Source: Bacteroidales bacterium
Lineage (GTDB): Bacteria > Bacteroidota > Bacteroidia > Bacteroidales > UBA7960
Length of the DNA: 53,046 nucleotides
NCBI GenBank assembly: GCA_007125585.1
Contig: SLCY01000054.1
Span: 1-53,046, forward strand
Reading direction: 5' to 3'
The first letter of the stretch is position 1. The number at the start of each line of letters is the position of its first letter. Positions 25,018 to 46,972 of this stretch are shown here, one piece after another. A program made the translations under genes and the position numbers. Below the pieces are notes generated by a model that was given only the letters and a program-made list of their open reading frames with translations, searched no databases and was not told where the DNA came from.

Positions 25018-25053
25018 GAGGGGTTGTGTTTACGACACGGTCCCTCTTTTTTT
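25018..25053 (+). terminator. rho-independent terminator of the rpoBC operon
   Basis: GAGGGGTTGTGT (25018-25029) pairs with ACACGGTCCCTC (25035-25046), giving 12 bp with three G-U pairs and a five-base loop. Seven T follow (25047-25053). It ends the plus-strand ribosomal/RNA polymerase operon and just touches the end of the convergent polymerase gene. Confidence 0.85.
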
Positions 25054-28039
25054 ATGTGCCGGTTCTCCGGGGATCCGGCTTTACGGGTAGCCGGGCCATT
25101 TTGTGGACGTTAAGGGAAGGCTGGCCAAACTCCTGGGTGATCTGTCCTTTGAGCAGGTAGACCCCTCTGCCGCGGAAAGGATATTGACGGTTGACTGCCG
25201 GGAAGTGGACGGTATCGAAAAACCGCCCTTCGTGATCGATAAAGCAGCCGAAATACATTGTCTCTTTTTTTATGGTGCGCACGTATTTGGTGGTGACCAG
25301 CCAGCCCAGCATACGTACCTCCCTGCCATCGCTGGAGAGCATTTCCCGGGCGAATATCTCACCGCGAAAGGATGTTTGCAGCAGGTCAAAGGGACTCATC
25401 GATACCGTAAATCCCAGCAACTCCATTTCGTCATAGGCCTCAGGCACCGGGCCGGTTTCAGGCTCGGGCAACTTGAATTTCCCGTCAGCCGGTATGGTGA
25501 AGAGCTTCGGGAGGCTGTTCGTCTTATTCCCGGCCAGCAGATAAGCCTTCCAGAGAAGGTGTGACTTTGGGATTCCGGTAAAGCGCAGTGCCGTTGTCCG
25601 GATAAGGATAACCAGTTGTTCGGTCGTGGTGCCTGTCCGCCCTGCAAAATCTTCCAGTCCCAGGTAAGGGCCATGGCGCAGGCGCTCATGCATGATGCAT
25701 TGTGCTGTTTTATGTTCCAGGTGTTGGATGTGTACCAGGCCCATATATATGGTGTTGCCCTGGATGCGGTTGACATGGTTGCTGTGGTTGACACATGGCA
25801 GCTCAATGTGTGCCCCCTGCCTGCGTGCTTCATGGAAATAGATCTCGCTGCGGTAGAACCCGCCGAAGTTATTGATAACGGCCGTCATAAATTCTATGGG
25901 ATAATGGGCTTTCAGGTAAAGGCTCTGGAAGCTCTCCACGGCAAAAGAGGCGGAGTGCGCTTTGGAGAAGGAGTAGCCTGCGAAAGATTCTATCTGTCGC
26001 CACACTTCTTTGACGAGGCTTTCGGGGTGCCCCTTTGCCCGGCAGCCTTCGAAGAACCGTTCCACCAGTCGAAGCATCTCTTTTTTCGACCGGTATTTCC
26101 CGCTCATGGCGCGCCGCAGGACGTCGGCATCGGCCAGGTCGAGTCCGGCGAAATGATGACATACCTTGATGACATCTTCCTGGTATACCATCACGCCGTA
26201 TGTCTCTTTGAGCTGTTCCTTCATTACCGGGTGGAGGTATTTTGTCTGTTCCGGATGCCGGGTACGGCGGATGTATTCCTGCATCATGCCGGAGCGGGAT
26301 ACCCCGGGCCGGATGATGGAACTGGCTGCCACCAGGCCCGGGTAGTCACTGCACTTCAGCTTTTTGAGCAAGCCACGCATGGCCGGGCTTTCCACGTAGA
26401 AGCAGCCGGTGGTCTCCCCGTTGCGCAGCAAGGCTTTCACCTTTTTGTCCTGTTTGATGTCCTCCATCCGGTGAATGTCTGTTCCCTTCCCACGGTTTTC
26501 GCGTATGAGCCGTATGCATTCGTTGATGTGTCCGATGCCGCGTTGACTGAGGATGTCGATCTTTTCAAAACCGAGCTCCTCAGCAACATACATGTCCCAC
26601 TGCACGGTAGGCAGCCCTTTGGGCGGCAGGTCGAGGGCTGAATAGCAGCAGATGGGGCTTTCGGAAACGAGCACGCCACCGGCATGAATGCTGCGCAGGT
26701 TGGGGTAGTCGGACAGTCGTGCCGCCCAGCGCAGGACCTTTGCGATGATGCTGTCTTGTTGGCCTGCCGCCTCCTGGGCAATGGCCTTCTCGTCCGGACG
26801 TATTGCAGCTGCCTGTTGTCCGGCCAGCAACGTGTCGATCTCATTTTTTGGCAGGCCGTACACTTTGCCCAGCTCCCTGACGGCCGACCGGTGATGAAAG
26901 GTGGAGATGGTGCCCAGCAGGGCGGTATGCTCACGCCCGTAGCGTTTGAAGATGTAGTCGAGCACCTGGTCGCGTTCCTTCCATGAGTAGTCTATGTCAA
27001 AATCGGGCGGTGTGGAGCGCCTGGGATTGATAAACCGTTCAAAGTACAGGTCCAGCTCGATGGGGTCCACATCGGTGATCTGCAGACAGTATGCCACAAT
27101 GCTGTTGGCGCCGCTGCCGCGCCCGACGTGGTAAAAGCCGCACGACATGGAGTAACGGACAATGTCCCAGGTGATAAGGAAGTAAGCGGAGAACCCCAGT
27201 TTATGGATGATGTCCAGCTCGTTCCTTATACGCCGCATCGCCTCTTTGTTGCCGTTGCCGTAGCGTCTCTGCATCCCGTCTGTCGCCAGCTTCTCCAGCA
27301 GGGCCTTGTCGTCGGCACGGTGTCCGGTGAAGGTCTTTTTGTTTTTTAAGGTGTGGAAGTCGAAGTCGATGCTGCATTGCCCGAGCAGGTCTTCCGTGTT
27401 GCTGATGATGTGAGGGAAGCCCGCATAGCATTGTTTCAGGTCTTCGACCGGCAACATCAACTCGTCGGGCATCGCCGTATGTTGTGTCTCCAGTTGGCTG
27501 AGCAGGGTGTTGTGGTGTATGGCCCGCAGGTGCCGGTGTAGTCCGTACCCTGTCGCATTCTGGAAGGACACCGGGTGCAGGGCCACCAGCCTGTCTGTAT
27601 GATGACGCAGGGGGGATGTGTGCAGGCGGTGCAGTCCGGTGGCCCTGATGCCGATGTATTCGTTTGGTCCCGGGGCGATTGTGTCGTTGTTACCGAAGGG
27701 ATAGATGCTGAGTGTATGTTCGCACACCGGGAAGCGCTGGGGCAGGGGGGTGTCATGGATATTGTGCCGGCTACGGAAGGTGTTGATCTGACGGAAGCCC
27801 TCTGCATTCCGTGCCAGAACGATATACCTCAGCCGGTTGTTTTGCCGGAACTCCATGCCTGCCACTGGTGTTATGCCCTGCTGGCGGCACCGCTGTACAA
27901 ATTCAGGCATGGCCGTGACGTTGTTGATATCGGTGAGGGCCAGCCGCTGCACTCCACACCGTGCGGCAAGATCTGCCAGCTGCTCCGGCGACAGGGTGCC
28001 GTAGCGCAGGCTGTAGTATGTATGGCAGTTGAGGTACAT
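25052..28039 (-). CDS. DnaE-like DNA polymerase III alpha subunit, short (error-prone type)
   Basis: The product (995 residues from ATG 28039; a TTG five codons upstream is also open) is a C-family polymerase shorter than the replicative DnaE. It has an N-terminal PHP domain whose first motif reads NCHT, not HxH. The palm contains PDFDID with catalytic Asp at D348 and D350, followed by the finger region (GRGSGANSIVAYCL, AGYSFSKAHSASFA) and a C-terminal OB-fold (REVRMLGWLVTTKY). It lies 18 bp downstream of dinB on the same strand, opposite an S24 repressor. That context matches DnaE2/ImuC translesion polymerases of damage-induced mutasomes, so I infer an error-prone role; a second, replicative DnaE should exist elsewhere. 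Confidence 0.88.
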   Translation of the reverse strand: MYLNCHTYYSLRYGTLSPEQLADLAARCGVQRLALTDINNVTAMPEFVQRCRQQGITPVAGMEFRQNNRLRYIVLARNAEGFRQINTFRSRHNIHDTPLPQRFPVCEHTLSIYPFGNNDTIAPGPNEYIGIRATGLHRLHTSPLRHHTDRLVALHPVSFQNATGYGLHRHLRAIHHNTLLSQLETQHTAMPDELMLPVEDLKQCYAGFPHIISNTEDLLGQCSIDFDFHTLKNKKTFTGHRADDKALLEKLATDGMQRRYGNGNKEAMRRIRNELDIIHKLGFSAYFLITWDIVRYSMSCGFYHVGRGSGANSIVAYCLQITDVDPIELDLYFERFINPRRSTPPDFDIDYSWKERDQVLDYIFKRYGREHTALLGTISTFHHRSAVRELGKVYGLPKNEIDTLLAGQQAAAIRPDEKAIAQEAAGQQDSIIAKVLRWAARLSDYPNLRSIHAGGVLVSESPICCYSALDLPPKGLPTVQWDMYVAEELGFEKIDILSQRGIGHINECIRLIRENRGKGTDIHRMEDIKQDKKVKALLRNGETTGCFYVESPAMRGLLKKLKCSDYPGLVAASSIIRPGVSRSGMMQEYIRRTRHPEQTKYLHPVMKEQLKETYGVMVYQEDVIKVCHHFAGLDLADADVLRRAMSGKYRSKKEMLRLVERFFEGCRAKGHPESLVKEVWRQIESFAGYSFSKAHSASFAVESFQSLYLKAHYPIEFMTAVINNFGGFYRSEIYFHEARRQGAHIELPCVNHSNHVNRIQGNTIYMGLVHIQHLEHKTAQCIMHERLRHGPYLGLEDFAGRTGTTTEQLVILIRTTALRFTGIPKSHLLWKAYLLAGNKTNSLPKLFTIPADGKFKLPEPETGPVPEAYDEMELLGFTVSMSPFDLLQTSFRGEIFAREMLSSDGREVRMLGWLVTTKYVRTIKKETMYFGCFIDHEGRFFDTVHFPAVNRQYPFRGRGVYLLKGQITQEFGQPSLNVHKMARLPVKPDPRRTGT

Positions 28040-28057
28040 GATAAGGGTCGGCAATCT

Positions 28058-29227
28058 CTAAATGTCTGGTGAACAGAGGTGGTGTGTCACGGCCCTGTGG
28101 ATGGCCCCGGCACCGTACTTATATCGCATACGGTCTACGGCCTTGTAAAGCCTGGCCAGCTCAGGCGTGTCTTCGAACATGTTGAGTTGTTGCACGCCGC
28201 GTATCAGCCGGCTAAACTGTAAGCCCACAAGCCGGATACGCATACGGCGGGTATAGAGGCGCCGGAAAAGCCCCTTGCAAACGGGGATGAGCACATGGTC
28301 GAAAGCGGTATAGGGCACCTTCTGCTGCAGGGTGTGGGTGTCGAAGTTCGCATAACGTATCTTGACACTTATGTTGCCTGTGAGCTGTTGATGTTTGCGC
28401 AGACGGTAAGCCAGCTGTTCACATAAGCCTGTCAGTATGTTGTTGATATGTGTGGTGTCGGTGCTGTCATTGTTAAAGGTCGTTTCGGTGCTGATGGCCT
28501 TCCGTTCGCTCCAGGCCTGTACAGGTGAATTGTCAAACCCGTTGGCGCGCTGCCATATCTCCCGTCCGTTTTTCCCCAGCATCCCCTCGAACACCTCCGG
28601 GGGGATGCTTCGCAGGGTGCGGATGGTGGCGATGCCCATGTTGCGCAGGCTGTTGTATGTTTTGGGGCCTATCAATGGGATCTTACGGACAGACAGCGGA
28701 TCAAGGAATGGCCTGATCACGGTGGGCGCCACCTCCAGTTGCCCGTTCGGCTTGGCTTCTCCTGTAGCGATCTTGGCGATGGTCTTGTTGAGCGATAACC
28801 CCATGGAGATGGGCAGGCCTGTTTCGTTCATGATGGCTTCCCGCAGTTCCGCCGCCCATTGGCGGCAGCCAAAAAAACGATCCATGCCCGTCAGGTCCAC
28901 ATAGTGCTCGTCGATGGAAGACTTCTCAAACAAGGGAGCCTTGCTGGCAATGATGGTGGTGACCAGATCGGAATAGCGGGAGTACAGCTCCATGTCGCCA
29001 TGTATATACACGGCATCGGAACACAGCTGGCGGGCCAGCTTCATGGGCATGGCCGACTGTACGCCAAACTGGCGTGCCTCATAGCTGCAGCTCGACACCA
29101 CCCCCCTGTCGCCAGCACCGCCAATGATTACCGGCCTGCCCGCCAAACGGCGGTTTCGCAAACGTTCCACCGATACAAAAAAAGTGTCCTGATCCAGGTG
29201 TAAGATACTTCGGTTGTCGCTGTGCAT
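28058..29227 (-). CDS. Y-family DNA polymerase (DinB/UmuC-like)
   Basis: The 389-residue translesion polymerase has all catalytic acids: D12 (HLDQDTFF), D106 and E107 (SIDEHYVDLTG). The helix-hairpin-helix region (RKIPLIGPKTYNSLRNMGI) and the little-finger domain follow. Near the C terminus QLNMF (347-351) fits the beta-clamp binding motif. It is thus an active enzyme, unlike ImuB, whose active site is degenerate. It is the first gene after the operator region shared with the XRE-S24 repressor and is followed closely by the dnaE-like gene, so the two are probably one damage-inducible unit. DinB and UmuC subfamilies are hard to separate by eye. Confidence 0.92.
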   Translation of the reverse strand: MHSDNRSILHLDQDTFFVSVERLRNRRLAGRPVIIGGAGDRGVVSSCSYEARQFGVQSAMPMKLARQLCSDAVYIHGDMELYSRYSDLVTTIIASKAPLFEKSSIDEHYVDLTGMDRFFGCRQWAAELREAIMNETGLPISMGLSLNKTIAKIATGEAKPNGQLEVAPTVIRPFLDPLSVRKIPLIGPKTYNSLRNMGIATIRTLRSIPPEVFEGMLGKNGREIWQRANGFDNSPVQAWSERKAISTETTFNNDSTDTTHINNILTGLCEQLAYRLRKHQQLTGNISVKIRYANFDTHTLQQKVPYTAFDHVLIPVCKGLFRRLYTRRMRIRLVGLQFSRLIRGVQQLNMFEDTPELARLYKAVDRMRYKYGAGAIHRAVTHHLCSPDI

Positions 29228-29245
29228 AAAAAATGTTGGTTTTTA

Positions 29246-29276
29246 TTTGTCAGGTTAAAGAAAACACCTATCTTTG
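29246..29276 (+). promoter_or_regulatory. promoter of the XRE-S24 repressor gene
   Basis: TTTG at 29246-29249 and TATCTTTG at 29269-29276 are spaced by exactly 19 bp, matching the -33/-7 consensus. The last four bases of the -7 element lie within the left arm of the inverted repeat at 29273-29293, so a protein bound there would block this promoter. Transcription should start near 29283. Confidence 0.82.
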
Positions 29277-29293
29277 ATTAGAAAATAATCAAA
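29273..29293. promoter_or_regulatory. inverted-repeat operator candidate O1
   Basis: TTTGATTA (29273-29280) and TAATCAAA (29286-29293) are perfect 8-bp inverted arms separated by GAAAA. A related copy, O2 (29296-29316), has the same right arm TAATCAAA (29309-29316) and a weaker left arm (CATGGTTA, 5 of 8 matching). The two dyads are 23 bp apart, about two helical turns. Location between the divergent repressor and dinB genes, overlapping the repressor promoter, makes this the likely binding site of the XRE-S24 protein. Confidence 0.72.
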
Positions 29294-29327
29294 AACATGG
29301 TTATAATATAATCAAAAATAATTGACG

Positions 29328-30128
29328 GTGTCCTGTTTCTTTGGAAAAAATATCAAATTGTTACGCAAGCGCCGCGGGCGCACCCAGGATGATGTGGCTT
29401 TTTCGCTGGGCCTGAAGCGGTCTACGCTGAGCGGTTATGAGAATGGTGTGGCGCAGCCCGGGCTGGAAGTATTGGTGAATTTTTCCCGGCATTTCAATGT
29501 CTCTATTGACACCCTTGTAAAAACGGACCTGGGTGCTTTGTTGGAGAGTCAGTTGTCGCAGCTGGAGCGGGGGTGCGATGTCTTCCTGACCGGCAGCAAA
29601 TTAAGGGTGTTGGCCACCACGGTCGATCGTGACAATGAGGAGAACATTGAGCTGGTGTCGGAAAAGGCAAAGGCCGGCTACAGGGCGGGCTTTGCTGATC
29701 CGGAGTTCATCAGGGTGCTGCCCACTTTCCAGATGCCATTCTTGTCGCGACAAAAGAAGTACCGTACATTCCAGGTATCGGGCGACAGCATGTTGCCCAT
29801 TGCTGATGGTTCGTGGGTTACCTGTGAGTTCGTTCAAAACTGGCAACTGATCCGCAACCGCCATGCTTATGTGATACATACGCTCGATGACGGGGTGGTG
29901 TTTAAGGTGGTGGAGAACCGTCTTAAAGAGGAAGGCAAGCTGACCCTGCACTCTCTGAACCCCGCCTATGAGCCTTATGACGTGCATGTGAATGACATCC
30001 GGGAGGTGTGGAAGTTTGTGAACTATATCAGCAATGTGATGCCTGATGGCGACACGCCGTATCAGGAACTCTCCAGGCAGGTGAACCGTCTTCGGTCAGA
30101 TGTGGAGAATCTGAAGCGGCGACAATAG
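29328..30128 (+). CDS. XRE HTH-S24 peptidase repressor (LexA/UmuD-like, self-cleaving)
   Basis: The protein (266 residues from GTG 29328; TTG 29322 is the other possible start, and no ATG fits) has an N-terminal XRE helix-turn-helix (about 5-60: NIKLLRKRRGRTQDDVAFSL, then GYENGVAQPG). A C-terminal S24 domain carries S154 in VSGDSML and K193 in VVFKVV, spaced as in LexA and UmuD. Ala-Gly bonds at A116-G117 and A120-G121 (KAGYRAGF) are candidate self-cleavage sites. A coiled coil (LSRQVNRLRSDVENLKRR) ends the protein. It faces dinB-dnaE across a palindromic operator, so I infer it represses both itself and the polymerases until DNA damage triggers cleavage. Confidence 0.88.
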   Translation: MSCFFGKNIKLLRKRRGRTQDDVAFSLGLKRSTLSGYENGVAQPGLEVLVNFSRHFNVSIDTLVKTDLGALLESQLSQLERGCDVFLTGSKLRVLATTVDRDNEENIELVSEKAKAGYRAGFADPEFIRVLPTFQMPFLSRQKKYRTFQVSGDSMLPIADGSWVTCEFVQNWQLIRNRHAYVIHTLDDGVVFKVVENRLKEEGKLTLHSLNPAYEPYDVHVNDIREVWKFVNYISNVMPDGDTPYQELSRQVNRLRSDVENLKRRQ

Positions 30129-39536: not shown

Positions 39537-41474
39537 ATGAAGCACAAAACACTTCCCCATCTTTTTGAAGAGAGTGTCAACAATTTTCCTGATAATATTT
39601 TGCTCCGGGAAAAAAAGAAGGCGGCCTATGAAGGGACGACCTATGCTGATGCATACAAAGCGGTGAGGCGAACTGCCCGTGGGTTGCTGAGCATAGGCCT
39701 CGAGAGGGGAGACAGGGTGGCATTGATATCTGAGGGGCGCAACGACTGGGTTATCAGCGAGCTGGCCATCCTTTTTGCCGGCGCAATCTGTGTCCCCCTT
39801 TCCGTGAAGATTGAACAGCCTTCCGAGCTGCAATTCCGCCTGGAACATTCAGGCTGTAAAGGGGTTATTGTATCCCGTAATCACCAGCACAAGGTGTTCC
39901 ATTTGCTGAACAAGCTACCTGAACTTGTGTTTGTCGTTGTTATGGACCCGTTGGATGAGGAGGCACAATTTGCCCGTGACCGCCATTCTCAAAAGATCAT
40001 CTATGTTGAAGATATCAGGAGCCAGGGCGATGGGGTACAGGAAAAATATTCTGGCACACTTGAGAAGGTCAAGGATTCGCTGGTCCCCGGCGACTATGCC
40101 AACATATGTTATACATCCGGTACTACCGCTGACCCGAAAGGCATCATGCTCACGCATCAAAACTATATTCACAATGTAGAACAGGCATCTGCCATTTTTG
40201 ATGTACCCCCGGAATTCACGTCATTGCATATTTTGCCCTGGGACCATTCCTTTGCCCATACCGTCGGCATCTATGCCTTGATGCGTAATGGCGCCAGCCT
40301 GGCATCGCTGAAGCCGGGGAAAACCCTCGCAGAGACCGTCAAAAATATCCCGGTTTGCATCAGGGAGGTAAGGCCCCACTTTCTGTTGAGTGTACCGGCC
40401 CTGGCAAAAAACTTCAGGACCAACATTGAGAAAGGTGTAAAAGAAAAGGGCAGGCCAGCCTGGTGGCTGTTTCAGATGGGTTTGAGAGCAGCTTATGCTT
40501 ACAACAGGGAGGGGAATAACAAAGGGGGCGGGTTCAGGGTGCTTCTGAAACCGGTCGTTCGTTTCATTGATGCGATATTGTTCAGGAAGATCCGTGCCGG
40601 CTTTGGCGGGCGCCTTCGGTTTTTCGTGGGTGGGGGTGCCTTGTTGGACATTGAGTTGCAACGGTTCTTTTATGCCCTTGGGATGCCCATGTATCAGGGC
40701 TATGGACTCACGGAGGCATCACCAATCATCTCCTCCAACAACCCTGATTTTCATAAGATAGGGTCATCGGGCAAGGTGGTCCCCTGGCTTGACCTGAAGA
40801 TATGTGGTGAGGATGGCCTTGAAAAGCCCATTGGCGAACAGGGGGAGATCGTAGTGCGCGGCGACAACGTGATGAAAGGATACTGGCGTAATGAGAAAGC
40901 CACCAATGAGACGGTGAGGGATGGATGGCTGTACACAGGTGACCTTGGATATCTTGATCATGACGGCTACCTGTATGTCCTTGGGCGCTCCAAAAGCCTG
41001 CTTATCGGGAGTGACGGCGAGAAATACAGTCCGGAAGGGATCGAGGAAGCCATGATCGAAAAATCCCCGTTCTTCGACCAGGTGATGTTGTACAATAACC
41101 AGCGTCCTTATACCGTGGGACTGGTGGTGATCAACAAGGTTGTCATGCGTGAATATTTGTTGAAACAGGGCCTGACGGCTTCAACGGAGGAGGGCCAGCG
41201 TGCTGCCTTGCAAAAAGTTCGTGCGGAGCTCGACCGCTTTATGCCCGGCGGTGAATATGAAGGGCTTTTCCCACCCCGGTGGTTGCCCGCCGCCGTTGCC
41301 GTACTGTCAGAGCCTTTCTCGGAAGCAAACGGGTTGATAAACAGTACGATGAAGATCGTTCGCCCGGCCATCCATAAGCATTATGAGTCAACAATAGAAT
41401 CCCTTTACACCCCCCGGGGAAAGGATATCTATCATCCCTCCAACAGGGATGCCATTTCAGCCCTGTCTGTATGA
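39537..41474 (+). CDS. long-chain acyl-CoA synthetase (AMP-binding)
   Basis: The 645-residue protein is an adenylate-forming enzyme that probably activates long-chain fatty acids as acyl-CoA at the inner membrane. The ATP/AMP signature YTSGTTADPKGIMLTH starts at Y192. The A5 region YQGYGLTEASPIISSN and the C-terminal domain with GWLYTGDLGYLDHDGYLYVLGR and GEKYSPEGIEEAM (containing the catalytic-type Lys) follow. Length fits the FadD15/FAA-like bacterial class. Its last codons overlap the QueA-fusion gene by 4 bp (ATGA), implying coupled translation, although the two functions are unrelated. Confidence 0.9.
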   Translation: MKHKTLPHLFEESVNNFPDNILLREKKKAAYEGTTYADAYKAVRRTARGLLSIGLERGDRVALISEGRNDWVISELAILFAGAICVPLSVKIEQPSELQFRLEHSGCKGVIVSRNHQHKVFHLLNKLPELVFVVVMDPLDEEAQFARDRHSQKIIYVEDIRSQGDGVQEKYSGTLEKVKDSLVPGDYANICYTSGTTADPKGIMLTHQNYIHNVEQASAIFDVPPEFTSLHILPWDHSFAHTVGIYALMRNGASLASLKPGKTLAETVKNIPVCIREVRPHFLLSVPALAKNFRTNIEKGVKEKGRPAWWLFQMGLRAAYAYNREGNNKGGGFRVLLKPVVRFIDAILFRKIRAGFGGRLRFFVGGGALLDIELQRFFYALGMPMYQGYGLTEASPIISSNNPDFHKIGSSGKVVPWLDLKICGEDGLEKPIGEQGEIVVRGDNVMKGYWRNEKATNETVRDGWLYTGDLGYLDHDGYLYVLGRSKSLLIGSDGEKYSPEGIEEAMIEKSPFFDQVMLYNNQRPYTVGLVVINKVVMREYLLKQGLTASTEEGQRAALQKVRAELDRFMPGGEYEGLFPPRWLPAAVAVLSEPFSEANGLINSTMKIVRPAIHKHYESTIESLYTPRGKDIYHPSNRDAISALSV

Positions 41475-43453
41475 ACAAACAATTGAAGGCTGCGACTTCT
41501 GTCGCCATGAAAGAATATACCTATACGTTGCCTGCAGCCCGCATTGCTTCTTATCCTTTAAAAGAGCGGGATGCATCAAAGCTGCTGGTTTATGATCATG
41601 GCAGGATACATGATTCCAGTTTCAGGGAAATGCATCAGCATCTTGATCCCGGCACCATGCTGGTATTGAACAATACCCGTGTTGTTCAGGCGCGCCTTGA
41701 GTTTTTCAAATCGTCCGGCGCTCGCATCGAGATTTTTTGCCTGCACCCTTCCAGGCCGTCAAAAGATGTGGCCGTGGCCCTTGGTCATTTTTCACCTGTC
41801 CAGTGGTATTGCCTTGTGGGCAATGCGAAAAAATGGAAAACGGGTGAACTGGAGATACGGCATCCCGGACGGCATTTTTCCCTGGTTGCCTCGCTGGAAA
41901 GAAAAGAAAAAGACGGGTTTTTGATAAATTTTCGATGGGAGCCATCCCATCTTGGGTTTGCAGAGGTTCTGGCGCTCGCCGGCAAAACACCCTTGCCGCC
42001 ATATATCACCAGGGCCCCGGAGGCAGCCGACAGGCAAACATATCAGACAGTGTTTGCTAGCGATGAGGGCTCGGTGGCTGCCCCGACCGCCGGACTGCAT
42101 TTCACGCCGGATGTCTTTCAGCGGCTGGATCAGAAAGGGATCGACAAAGCGTTTCTGACCTTGCATGTGGGCGCAGGGACATTCAAGCCGGTCGTTTCAA
42201 ATACCATTGGCAAACACATGATGCATGAAGAACAATTCATGACCGACCGTGATTTTTTGCAGCGGCTGCTCTCCCAGAAGGGTCCCTTGCTGGCGGTGGG
42301 CACTACCAGCCTGCGCACCATCGAAAGCCTCTATTGGCTGGGTGCAAAAATCGGCCGGGGACACCCCCCCAGGGGAGAGACCCCTTTCATCTCCCAATGG
42401 GAACCGTATGAATGGAAACACCCATTGCCGTCAAAAAGACAAGCCATCAAAGCGTTGCTTCATTGGATGGAAGAAAAAGAACTGGATCAGTTAAACGGCA
42501 ATACTGCGTTGATCATCGTCCCGGGATATGTTTTTCAGATGACAGACATCCTGGCAACCAACTTTCATCAGCCCGGAAGCACCCTGCTGTTGCTGGTGGC
42601 CGCGTTTGCCGGAGAAGACTGGAAAAAAATCTATCAACATGCGCTGGATAACGATTATCGTTTTCTGAGCTATGGCGATGGCTGCCTGTTGTTCAGGGAC
42701 AGGGGCCAGGGGGTAAAAAGACCGGCCATGACCTGTCGAAGCAGTGAGGCCAGCGATATTTTCGGTCGCGCGTTCAAGGATTTTATGTCAGGAAAAACAG
42801 ATGGTATGATCCGTGTCAGCACCAGCCTATCGGCGGCGGAAGCATTGCCGGTCGCCTATTTCTTTCGCTCTTTCAACAAGATGCCTGAGTGGGAAAAGCT
42901 GGTCATGGAAAGATGCAGGGGACGTGTGTTGGATGTTGGCGCCGGTGCCGGGAGCCATGCCCTGGCACTGCAGGACAAAGGGTTGGCGGTTTGTGCCATC
43001 GATGTGTCGGCAGGGGCTGTTGAGGTGATGGAACGGCGTGGGGTGAAGAATGTACAATGCCGCAATTTCTTCCGGCTTCAGGAGAAAGGCTTTGATACCA
43101 TATTGTTTTTGATGAATGGCGCTGGAATGGCTGGTACGTTGGATGGACTGAAGAAACTGCTGACACACGCCCGGAAGCTATTGAACCCTGGTGGGGCCGT
43201 CTACCTTGAGTCGACCGATCTGATGTATATGTATGAAGAAGAGGATGGCTCAGTGCTGATTCCCATGGGACAAAAATACTATGGGGAACTCGAATACCAT
43301 CTAGGCTATGAGGACCTGGATGCAGAACCCTTTCCGTGGCTGTTTGTCGACCCGGACAACCTGGCCGGCATCGCCGCGCGTTGCGGCATGCATGCGGAGA
43401 TCATTTACCAGGGTGTGGACCATAATTATGTAGCGGAGATCGTGGCTTTGTGA
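41471..43453 (+). CDS. QueA-type ribosyltransferase-isomerase fused to a SAM methyltransferase
   Basis: One open frame of 660 residues joins two enzymes. Residues 1 to about 410 match S-adenosylmethionine:tRNA ribosyltransferase-isomerase (QueA), which builds epoxyqueuosine on tRNA: LPPYI, GSVAAPTAGLHF (200-211), HVGAGTFKPV, HMMHEE, GTTSLRTIES, TNFHQPGST (363-371) and SYGD (400-403). After a linker, about 435-660 form a class I methyltransferase with motif I VLDVGAGAG (486-494), FLMNGAGMAGTLDGL and NPGGAVYLESTD. No stop or frame break separates them. The QueA half is shifted from canonical sequences and may be the Bacteroidota paralog, so its tRNA substrate is not certain. ATG 41471 overlaps the upstream stop; ATG 41507 is an alternative. 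Confidence 0.88.
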   Translation: MNKQLKAATSVAMKEYTYTLPAARIASYPLKERDASKLLVYDHGRIHDSSFREMHQHLDPGTMLVLNNTRVVQARLEFFKSSGARIEIFCLHPSRPSKDVAVALGHFSPVQWYCLVGNAKKWKTGELEIRHPGRHFSLVASLERKEKDGFLINFRWEPSHLGFAEVLALAGKTPLPPYITRAPEAADRQTYQTVFASDEGSVAAPTAGLHFTPDVFQRLDQKGIDKAFLTLHVGAGTFKPVVSNTIGKHMMHEEQFMTDRDFLQRLLSQKGPLLAVGTTSLRTIESLYWLGAKIGRGHPPRGETPFISQWEPYEWKHPLPSKRQAIKALLHWMEEKELDQLNGNTALIIVPGYVFQMTDILATNFHQPGSTLLLLVAAFAGEDWKKIYQHALDNDYRFLSYGDGCLLFRDRGQGVKRPAMTCRSSEASDIFGRAFKDFMSGKTDGMIRVSTSLSAAEALPVAYFFRSFNKMPEWEKLVMERCRGRVLDVGAGAGSHALALQDKGLAVCAIDVSAGAVEVMERRGVKNVQCRNFFRLQEKGFDTILFLMNGAGMAGTLDGLKKLLTHARKLLNPGGAVYLESTDLMYMYEEEDGSVLIPMGQKYYGELEYHLGYEDLDAEPFPWLFVDPDNLAGIAARCGMHAEIIYQGVDHNYVAEIVAL

Positions 43454-43494: not shown

Positions 43495-44418
43495 TTAGAT
43501 CTGAATGATCACAGCGATGGCGATGAGCAGATCTGTGGCCAGTACGACAATCACGTTCATCCCCAGTGCAGGCATCAGTTTCACCGGGTCTTCGCCGTGC
43601 CTGATGGCGATTTGTGAGGCTTTGAGGGCTATCGGCAGCGGTAAAAGGGCCAGGTAGAGCCAGAAGGATGAGACCCCAACCAGTGGCAAAAGAAGGATGA
43701 TGGCGAAGGTGGCCAGCATGCCGGCAGTGTATAGACGGGCGGAGGCTTTCTTGCCATACTTGATGACCAGGTGTTTCCTGCCGCCGGCTTTGTCAGCCTC
43801 CACATCAGGGAATTCATTAAGTAACAACAAAAGGGAGGTCAGTATGCCGGGGGGGATGGCGATGAGCCACACCTCCAGCGGGACAATCTCTGGGATCGAT
43901 GCTGCGGGGGTGCCGTTCATGGCAATGTATGCGCCGAGGACCACCAGCGATCCCAGCGCAATGCCGGCAAACAGTTCACCCATCACTATTTTGGACAGCC
44001 TGCTGGTGTAAAACACAATGGTAAGGGCCCCAACGACCGATATCAGTGCAATGGACCAGTGGGCGGTAAAGGTAAAATAAACGCCGATGCCGGCAGCAAC
44101 CAGCAGGGTCAGCAAAGCGGCAAATTTAACCTGTGCGGGCTTCGTCTGTCCCTCCGTCAGCATGCCGCTGCCCCCGCTGAAAGGTGTCCGCCGTGTCAGG
44201 AAATCAATTTTTGTATGGTGGTCAGATAATTCGTTGAAAAGGTTCACTGATACATGCGCCGAGATGGTGCCAAGCATGATCAGGCTGGCATGCCACCAGT
44301 TAAACGATGGCTCAGGGCTATATTTGGCGGCATATGCCAGGCCGATGGCTACGAGAAAAACAGCCAGTAATAGAAAGTTTGCACGTGTCTGTGCCAGCCA
44401 GATCTGAAGCTTGTTCAT
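43495..44418 (-). CDS. UbiA-superfamily prenyltransferase, MenA-like
   Basis: The 307-residue inner-membrane protein has about eight to nine hydrophobic helices and both Asp-rich motifs of the UbiA superfamily: N62-x3-D66...D72 (NLFNELSDHHTKID) and NEFPDVEADKAGG. Both bind the prenyl diphosphate through magnesium. The TRRTPFSGGSGML segment after the first motif is typical of MenA-type enzymes, which attach the polyprenyl chain to 1,4-dihydroxy-2-naphthoate in menaquinone synthesis. A menaquinone role would fit the phylum, but no other men genes are nearby and other aromatic acceptors are possible. It is convergent with the QueA-fusion gene. Confidence 0.85.
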   Translation of the reverse strand: MNKLQIWLAQTRANFLLLAVFLVAIGLAYAAKYSPEPSFNWWHASLIMLGTISAHVSVNLFNELSDHHTKIDFLTRRTPFSGGSGMLTEGQTKPAQVKFAALLTLLVAAGIGVYFTFTAHWSIALISVVGALTIVFYTSRLSKIVMGELFAGIALGSLVVLGAYIAMNGTPAASIPEIVPLEVWLIAIPPGILTSLLLLLNEFPDVEADKAGGRKHLVIKYGKKASARLYTAGMLATFAIILLLPLVGVSSFWLYLALLPLPIALKASQIAIRHGEDPVKLMPALGMNVIVVLATDLLIAIAVIIQI

Positions 44419-45331: not shown

Positions 45332-46972
45332 TCAATCCAGTTCGAGGTGCCGAAGGCCTTGTCTGAAAACAACGTCCACAGGGATATCCTCCCTGTTGAT
45401 GCGGTCAAGGTCACCCTGCAGCGTTTCCGACATGGCACCGTATGTTTGTATCAGTTCCTGCGCGGCACGATAATTTCCGTCGCCCTGGATGATGAGCAAC
45501 TCCTCGACCGTCTTTTCCACTGCTTTTCTCATATTGTCGAAGTGTACCTGGTATGTGTCGGTTTCCTGGCAGCGTTCAAAGGCTTCTTCCCGTGCGAAGA
45601 TGTTGAATCGAATCATCCCTGCGGTCCCGTGTGCCCCTGCCGTGCCAAAACGGCTGGACCGCATCACGCTGGCGAAAGAGGTCACGTAGGCTTGTTTGAG
45701 CTCCTCTTCCGTCAGTTCACCCATCTCCTCCAGCTGGGTGATCAGGTAGAGTGCCATCAGGTCGGAAACGGTGGCATTGATGATGCCATGGTATTCACGC
45801 AGTGCATCCCTGACAGACCCCGGCCCTGTGACCCTGTCGGAGATCGTCAGTCCGCCGGCGATCTCATGAAAAGCGGTAAGGTGAAAAAAGGCGTCGAAGC
45901 TTATGTGTTCGCGCTGTTCCTCGTGGATCATCATTTCACCAATGGGCTGTAATATCCCGTCAAATTTTGCTTCCATCACGTTTCTCAGCTGCATGCTGCG
46001 GGTACCCGCCTTCTGTTGTACTTCGGGATCGTGCGGCAGGTGGAGTGCAATGATCTTGGGACCAGCATTGCAATGTCCGGCATAATAGATGGCATCATAT
46101 ACATACATGTCAGAATCATCGCCCGGCACTTCCTGTTTGTATTCAGCAGGCACAGGCAACCTCGCCTGCAGTGCAGGCACCATCTCCACGAAACGTTCCA
46201 GCTTTCGGCTCCTGTCGTGGTCTTTCACAACAATGTAGGCGCTATGTGCGGCCTTGTGCCCAAATTTACGGTCTTCGCCTGTATCCAGAGGCCTTAGCAC
46301 CAGGTCGATGTTGTTGTCCTTCATCTGCATCCACGCCAGGTCACTCTCCCTGTAGTCATCGGTGAGCAATGCCTCTGCCAGTTTCATCAGATAATCTGCA
46401 AAAGGACTGTATTCCGCAAGCATGGATGCTTTTTCCAATAAAAGGGCAATTTCCTGGTTATGTTCTGCGAATGCTTCAGCGTATGGGATGGACACCAGGG
46501 AGCCGTCGGCATCACGGCGGATCATTGTGTAAGGGCTTCGCTTGTCAGGGTGGTCCCATTCGTTGAACTCCTCACGTTCCAGGTCGGGTGGATAAAAGTT
46601 GGCTCCAAGGGGCTTGTCTTCAAAACCGGGATAAAAAGGGGTGTGCCCCTCCAGGCGGCCCCAGGGCCCGTAATTGATCCGTGCATACTCGCGGGCATAC
46701 GGATCGTCCATAAAATCCATCAGCTGGTCTTTCGACCCGTAAGACTGCATCCAGAATATATCATCCACAATATCAGCAGCGGAGATGAGAATGGGGATCA
46801 TGTCACGCTCCTGCTCACTCAGCCATGCAAGATCGGTGGTCAATACCACGTCTGCATACTGGTCAATGCGTTCGCGGATCTGTCGCTGGTATTCTTCGTC
46901 GGCCGGCCGGCAACCCCCAAAAACCGTCAGCGAAAAAATGGTTGTCAAAAATAAAATCCTGGTACGTTTCAT
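45332..46972 (-). CDS. M49-like (DPP III-related) lipoprotein with altered metal site
   Basis: The 546-residue protein starts with a lipoprotein signal (cysteine at residue 21, FGGC) and should be anchored in the envelope. Its segments INYGPWGRL, GANFYPPDLEREEF, YTMIRRDADG, LLTDDYRESDLAWMQMKDN, DAIYYAGHCNAGPKIIALHLP and SSRFGTAGAHGTAGMIRFN fit the zinc hydrolase family related to dipeptidyl peptidase III. The motif expected as HExxHGLG reads HEIAGGLT (369-376), losing the second His. The downstream E-E-x-K-A-D element reads NATVSD (399-404). An intact reading frame with a lost metal site suggests a non-catalytic or changed function. Its start codon directly abuts the octamer repeat array. Confidence 0.8.
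   Translation of the reverse strand: MKRTRILFLTTIFSLTVFGGCRPADEEYQRQIRERIDQYADVVLTTDLAWLSEQERDMIPILISAADIVDDIFWMQSYGSKDQLMDFMDDPYAREYARINYGPWGRLEGHTPFYPGFEDKPLGANFYPPDLEREEFNEWDHPDKRSPYTMIRRDADGSLVSIPYAEAFAEHNQEIALLLEKASMLAEYSPFADYLMKLAEALLTDDYRESDLAWMQMKDNNIDLVLRPLDTGEDRKFGHKAAHSAYIVVKDHDRSRKLERFVEMVPALQARLPVPAEYKQEVPGDDSDMYVYDAIYYAGHCNAGPKIIALHLPHDPEVQQKAGTRSMQLRNVMEAKFDGILQPIGEMMIHEEQREHISFDAFFHLTAFHEIAGGLTISDRVTGPGSVRDALREYHGIINATVSDLMALYLITQLEEMGELTEEELKQAYVTSFASVMRSSRFGTAGAHGTAGMIRFNIFAREEAFERCQETDTYQVHFDNMRKAVEKTVEELLIIQGDGNYRAAQELIQTYGAMSETLQGDLDRINREDIPVDVVFRQGLRHLELD

Follow-up and report, generated by a model that had tools for sequence, protein, structure and literature searches.

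A QueA-type domain and a class I methyltransferase in one open reading frame of a Bacteroidales genome: probable product of a single recent mutation between neighboring genes

The window analyzed here is a 53,046-nucleotide stretch of contig SLCY01000054.1 of a Bacteroidales bacterium (assembly GCA_007125585.1), and at positions 41471 to 43453 of its forward strand one frame runs without a stop through 660 codons, from an ATG start to a TGA stop. An initial annotation had described this frame as uninterrupted, and our reading agreed. The encoded chain begins with a domain of the tRNA-modifying enzyme QueA, belonging to a longer class that we name QueA2 here, and ends with a class I methyltransferase that depends on S-adenosylmethionine (SAM). 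The probable origin of this frame is, in our view, the recent joining, in one step, of two neighboring genes for independent enzymes.

The fusion was restricted to a single genome. A stop-free joint frame was present in 1 of 47 genomes of the family and in 1 of 21 genomes of the genus, in each case that of the window, so that no fusion shared by more than one species was found. Among the 46 other family genomes (genomes and loci carry our own G and L labels), the two genes were separate, on the same strand and within 0.8 kb of each other, with the methyltransferase downstream of QueA2, in 29; this number was counted by hand and comprises 28 genomes from the family survey and G020, in which the methyltransferase is cut by a contig end. 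The genes lay apart in five genomes (G022, G028, G030, G034, and G214), and three had no usable QueA2 (G001, with a fragment only, G004, and G216). Nine genomes (G007, G014, G026, G027, G029, G033, G206, G209, and G213) could not be judged, as QueA2 or the methyltransferase was truncated, absent, or located at the end of a contig. The initial annotation had likened the fused methyltransferase domain to separate genes of Bacteroidota and had proposed a search for the two domains as adjacent genes; most of the relatives that could be judged carry them in this form. The junction was read in 30 loci including that of the window, the 29 others coming from 28 sources (L034 and L067 are the same). 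QueA2 was closed by a stop in all 29. The methyltransferase followed in any of the three frames, at distances that ranged from a slight overlap up to several hundred bases, and shared the frame of QueA2 in six cases, each with a stop in between. Open frames of 772, 909, and 714 amino acids in G006, G023, and G024 were joined stretches in which the genes actually lie in separate frames. The nearest relative of both halves was G018, with identities of 67% and 70%, as would be the case for a long-standing gene pair with a late fusion.

The search was extended to 147 further genomes of a draw from the phylum (the window's own genome being the 148th of the draw; counts made by hand), and no second fusion was found among the matches listed, which reached to about E 1e-36. 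A search of viral contigs gave no relative. Long frames at L131 (G125), L118 (G159), and L126 (G101) were rejected as fusions because they look like chance open stretches upstream of QueA, and L109 (G075) was rejected because its upstream gene stops just before QueA2. L132 (G088) and L138 (G180; a methyltransferase match in a long frame with an internal stop) were not judged.

The junction itself indicates how simply such a frame could form. In the window it reads AGG GAC AGG GGC CAG GGG GTA AAA AGA CCG GCC ATG, and in relatives the corresponding position contains the tail of QueA2 with its stop, intergenic DNA where there is any, and the start of the methyltransferase. With one G fewer in the run at 42709 to 42713, CAG GGG GTA AAA becomes CAG GGG TAA, and QueA2 ends 11 residues past a conserved GD pair and 11 bases before the ATG at 42728; QueA2 of relatives ends 5 to 14 residues (median, 8.5; n = 30) past the same pair. 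In addition, codons 413, 416, and 417 (CAG, AAA, and AGA) are each one substitution away from a stop. Since an out-of-frame TAA falls within the range of ends seen in relatives and several codons are close to stops, a single mutation would suffice for the fusion. The ATG at 42728 precedes the DIFG motif of the methyltransferase family by 9 residues, and the ATG starts read in relatives lie about 1 to 7 residues before it. This codon is likely the original methyltransferase start; it is still usable as an internal start, and free methyltransferase may also be made.

According to the favored explanation, two co-directional neighbors would have been joined in the lineage of the window by one mutation that removed the QueA2 stop. 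The simplest such mutation would be an extra G in the run, and a stop-loss substitution would be equally sufficient. If translated whole, the product would consist of two complete SAM-using enzymes tethered by a floppy linker of approximately 20 residues. One would be a ribosyltransferase-isomerase of the QueA2 type; the other, a methyltransferase, probably takes small molecules or peptides as substrates. The two domains would act independently of each other, as is presumably true of their unfused homologs. Several observations weigh against this explanation. The adjacency of the two genes in so many relatives could mean a functional link, and the methyltransferases found in the phylum without QueA2 are 37 to 44% identical and may differ in function. 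Moreover, a single draft assembly was read, so an assembly error is possible, and the fused and separate forms of the protein are both predictions.

An error in the consensus is unlikely, although it is the most probable of the rivals. The same frame would arise if one base had slipped in the run of G or if a stop had been miscalled, and the cell would then have two ordinary genes separated by about 11 bp. The out-of-frame TAA at the place where QueA2 of relatives ends, the usable ATG 11 bases further on, the lack of a fusion in any of the relatives read, and the draft state of the genome (120 contigs) are all consistent with such an error; indeed, a real one-base fusion and a sequence error would look alike in assembled DNA. 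The quality of the surrounding sequence argues in the other direction. Frames were intact across 258 homopolymer runs of at least 5 (59 of G or C) in 30 open reading frames (ORFs) of the window (41.2 kb, including both fused halves), a tally that bounds the error rate only roughly, and six neighboring genes matched the lengths of those in relatives.

QueA is the tRNA preQ1(34) SAM ribosyltransferase-isomerase, which converts preQ1-tRNA into epoxyqueuosine-tRNA. The Pfam model Queuosine_synth (PF02547) matched amino acids 14 to 407 of the fused chain, encoded by window positions 41510 to 42691, with 320 bits (cutoff, 25) over model positions 2 to 322 of 322. The initial annotation had recognized "nearly all" QueA motifs; its identification as QueA held, and the restriction can be dropped, since the domain is complete. 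The domain also exceeded the NCBIfam equivalog cutoffs of NF001140 (337.7 versus 324 bits) and TIGR00113 (286.5 versus 267.45 bits). It fell below that of a third QueA model, NF002398 (195.9 versus 588 bits), as did the canonical copy of the same genome. An AlphaFold model of the domain had a mean predicted local distance difference test score (pLDDT) of 93.8, and the only PDB matches obtained with Foldseek at E 0.001 or better were the QueA structures 1vky, 1yy3, and 1wdi (four chains). The canonical copy, for which the initial annotation had suggested looking, is a 350-amino-acid QueA on another contig (G000:C71:1903-2940) with 442 bits in the Pfam search (320 for the fused copy). Canonical QueA, TGT, and QueG are all present in the genome. 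Therefore, the fused copy is a paralog. QueC and QueH gave no match in a search of the same assembly; as QueC was not detected, salvage of preQ0 or preQ1 by the organism is one possibility, and loss of the gene in an assembly gap is another.

The two QueA classes were then counted by hand, on the basis of score and span and with fragments included, in 59 genomes (the window's own, 20 of the genus, 14 of the family, and 24 of the order). Canonical QueA was found in 55 and the longer class in 56, and the genomes without one of the classes were all less than 90% complete. Both classes occurred in all 36 genomes with a completeness of 90% or more and a contamination of 5% or less, with the canonical copy of G015 in two pieces and the longer copy of G033 cut. 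Of six further well-assembled family genomes, five had the longer class and G216 (92% complete) had only canonical-type matches. Across genus, family, and order, QueA2 was thus present in 41 of the 42 well-assembled genomes. In a tree built from 37 canonical rows and 31 QueA2 rows, the classes separated with 100/99 support; this tree is unrooted, covers the phylum Bacteroidota, and contains some long branches that caused a program warning. Rather than falling inside the canonical group with its length of about 350 amino acids, QueA2 formed a group of its own that is approximately 60 amino acids longer (mostly about 400 to 420), with an extra segment near amino acids 288 to 340 of the fused chain, after the GTTSxRTxES motif. 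Despite this difference and the coexistence of both classes in one genome, QueA2 shares the QueA fold, and at 48 positions a residue shared by at least 95% of the canonical rows was kept in at least 90% of the QueA2 rows. The position of E. coli QueA H226 was occupied by D in 35 of 37 canonical rows and by H in all 31 QueA2 rows, and, given this pattern, the division of labor between the classes could go either way. Altogether, QueA2 resembles a QueA in its motifs but forms a distinct class, with a predicted enzymatic activity.

For the second half of the chain, the initial annotation had proposed a SAM-binding methyltransferase domain, and this assignment was confirmed. Five Pfam models (Methyltransf_23, _25, _12, _11, and _31) scored above their cutoffs within amino acids 483 to 593, and the domain extends from about amino acid 429. 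Its AlphaFold model had a mean pLDDT of 95.0; the two domains were folded separately and not as a whole chain, and the ends that face the linker were of low confidence in both models. The best solved match was Bacteroides fragilis 5bp9 (E 7e-54, Z 33.5, root mean square deviation [rmsd] of 1.5, 40% identity over 233 residues), which places the domain among the class I SAM-dependent methyltransferases. The match to 5bp9, an SAM-dependent methyltransferase whose function is not stated, is full length, and 5bp9 was solved as a separate 281-residue chain without a QueA domain. XhnM1 (PDB 9klx and 9khp), solved with the natural product Xinhaicarcin BG, followed as the second structural match (Z 27.7, rmsd of 2.4 over 227 residues, 29% identity). 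Further neighbors included CgnL, CypM, and sugar N-methyltransferases. Several of the rows listed had no stated function, and those named were mostly small-molecule or natural-product, sugar, or peptide methyltransferases; none of the 50 structural matches listed was titled a tRNA methyltransferase. Therefore, the comparison suggests a small molecule, a sugar, or a peptide as the substrate, although fold alone shows no function. Among NCBIfam families, no methyltransferase model reached its cutoff for the domain of the window or for three relatives.

Among the matches listed for the other 147 genomes of the draw from the phylum, QueA2 was found in 27 (E at most 2.4e-81) and the methyltransferase in 20. 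Only two genomes (G103 and G130) had both, on different contigs, compared to about 3.7 expected by chance; 18 had the methyltransferase without QueA2, and 25 had QueA2 without the methyltransferase. The two families are unassociated across the phylum. In four relatives, the methyltransferase directly adjoins mnmD, which encodes a tRNA wobble enzyme, away from QueA2 (G022, G028, G030, and G034; loci L151, L152, L156, and L157). Since the methyltransferase is found beside mnmD where it is away from QueA2, the neighborhood of the two fused partners appears to be a gene order at the level of the family in which two blocks were joined, and a link between the methyltransferase and mnmD is as good a lead as one to QueA2.

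These data make it improbable that the chain is a selected bifunctional enzyme, with QueA2 transferring a ribosyl-derived group onto tRNA or a different acceptor and the attached methyltransferase then methylating what is formed. Both domains come from SAM-using families and have intact motifs, their genes are adjacent in 29 of the 46 other family genomes, and mnmD is nearby (directly beside the methyltransferase in the four relatives named above), all of which would fit such an enzyme. However, the fusion occurs in one genome only, the families show no association outside the family, the structural neighbors are mostly natural-product, peptide, and sugar methyltransferases, and no NCBIfam methyltransferase model reached its cutoff. 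We regard as very improbable the broader proposal that QueA2 makes a modification distinct from queuosine, that the adjacent methyltransferase caps its product in this family, and that the fusion betrays this partnership. The suggestion of the initial annotation that the methyltransferase acts on the same tRNA or on the queuosine precursor was not borne out, given the presence of canonical QueA, TGT, and QueG, the single fusion in 47 genomes, and the independent occurrence of the families; a queuosine-methylating enzyme is unsupported. Finally, that the fused domain is the queuosine enzyme of this genome, with the fusion as part of the normal pathway, is hardly credible: it exceeds two NCBIfam cutoffs and keeps the H of E. 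coli QueA residue 226, a position held by D in most canonical rows of the group, but the canonical copy scores far higher (444 versus 338 bits in the NCBIfam comparison and 324 versus 209 bits against 1yy3; 40% versus 36% identity to E. coli QueA), and the classes split with high support in the 68-row tree, some long branches notwithstanding.

As a fusion, the frame is of little importance, because it occurs in a single genome and one mutation separates it from the usual two-gene form. The presence of QueA2 beside canonical QueA nearly throughout the order is more notable, as NCBIfam models name both of them QueA. If the product of QueA2 is a different one, this class would blur predictions of queuosine ability from genome sequences. 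A literature search covering titles and the openings of abstracts found no report of a QueA paralog class or of a QueA fusion.

The features of the locus are compiled in Table 1. The AMP-binding neighbor (cluster c3) is also found beside QueA2 in relatives. The mnmD-type gene had been placed 1 kb away by the initial annotation, in agreement with the distance determined here.

Table 1. Coordinates of the fused frame, its parts, and its neighbors in the window
Feature	Position	Strand	Evidence or remark
Fused ORF: QueA2-type domain and class I methyltransferase	41471..43453	+	Stop-free, unlike the loci of relatives
QueA2-type SAM:tRNA ribosyltransferase-isomerase domain (PF02547 at amino acids 14-407)	41471..42700	+	Pfam/NCBIfam, alignment, AlphaFold, Foldseek
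Linker, about amino acids 409-428	42695..42754	+	Low model confidence at amino acids 414-423; unconserved in relatives
GGGGGTAAAAA: five-G run, then TAA in neighboring frame	42709..42719	+	Sequence reading
In-frame ATG, residue 420, likely original methyltransferase start	42728..42730	+	9 residues before DIFG motif
Class I SAM-dependent methyltransferase, Bacteroidota family, PDB 5bp9 type	42755..43450	+	Pfam, structure comparison
AMP-binding gene (acyl-CoA synthetase-like), upstream, co-directional	39537..41474	+	Overlaps QueA2 start by ATGA
UbiA-family prenyltransferase gene	43495..44418	-	Pfam; between fused ORF and mnmD-type gene
mnmD-type methyltransferase gene, PF05430	44521..45225	+	1.07 kb downstream of fused ORF

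A gene at 45332 to 46972 of the window matched Peptidase_M49 weakly (22.1 bits; cutoff, 21), and genes of this type (cluster c17) were also found near mnmD in two relatives (loci L087 and L095). Elsewhere in the window, at 25052 to 30128, genes for a DnaE-type polymerase III alpha subunit, a Y-family polymerase, and a divergent helix-turn-helix (HTH)-Peptidase_S24 (LexA-like) regulator are grouped together, in what we take to resemble an inducible mutagenesis cassette.

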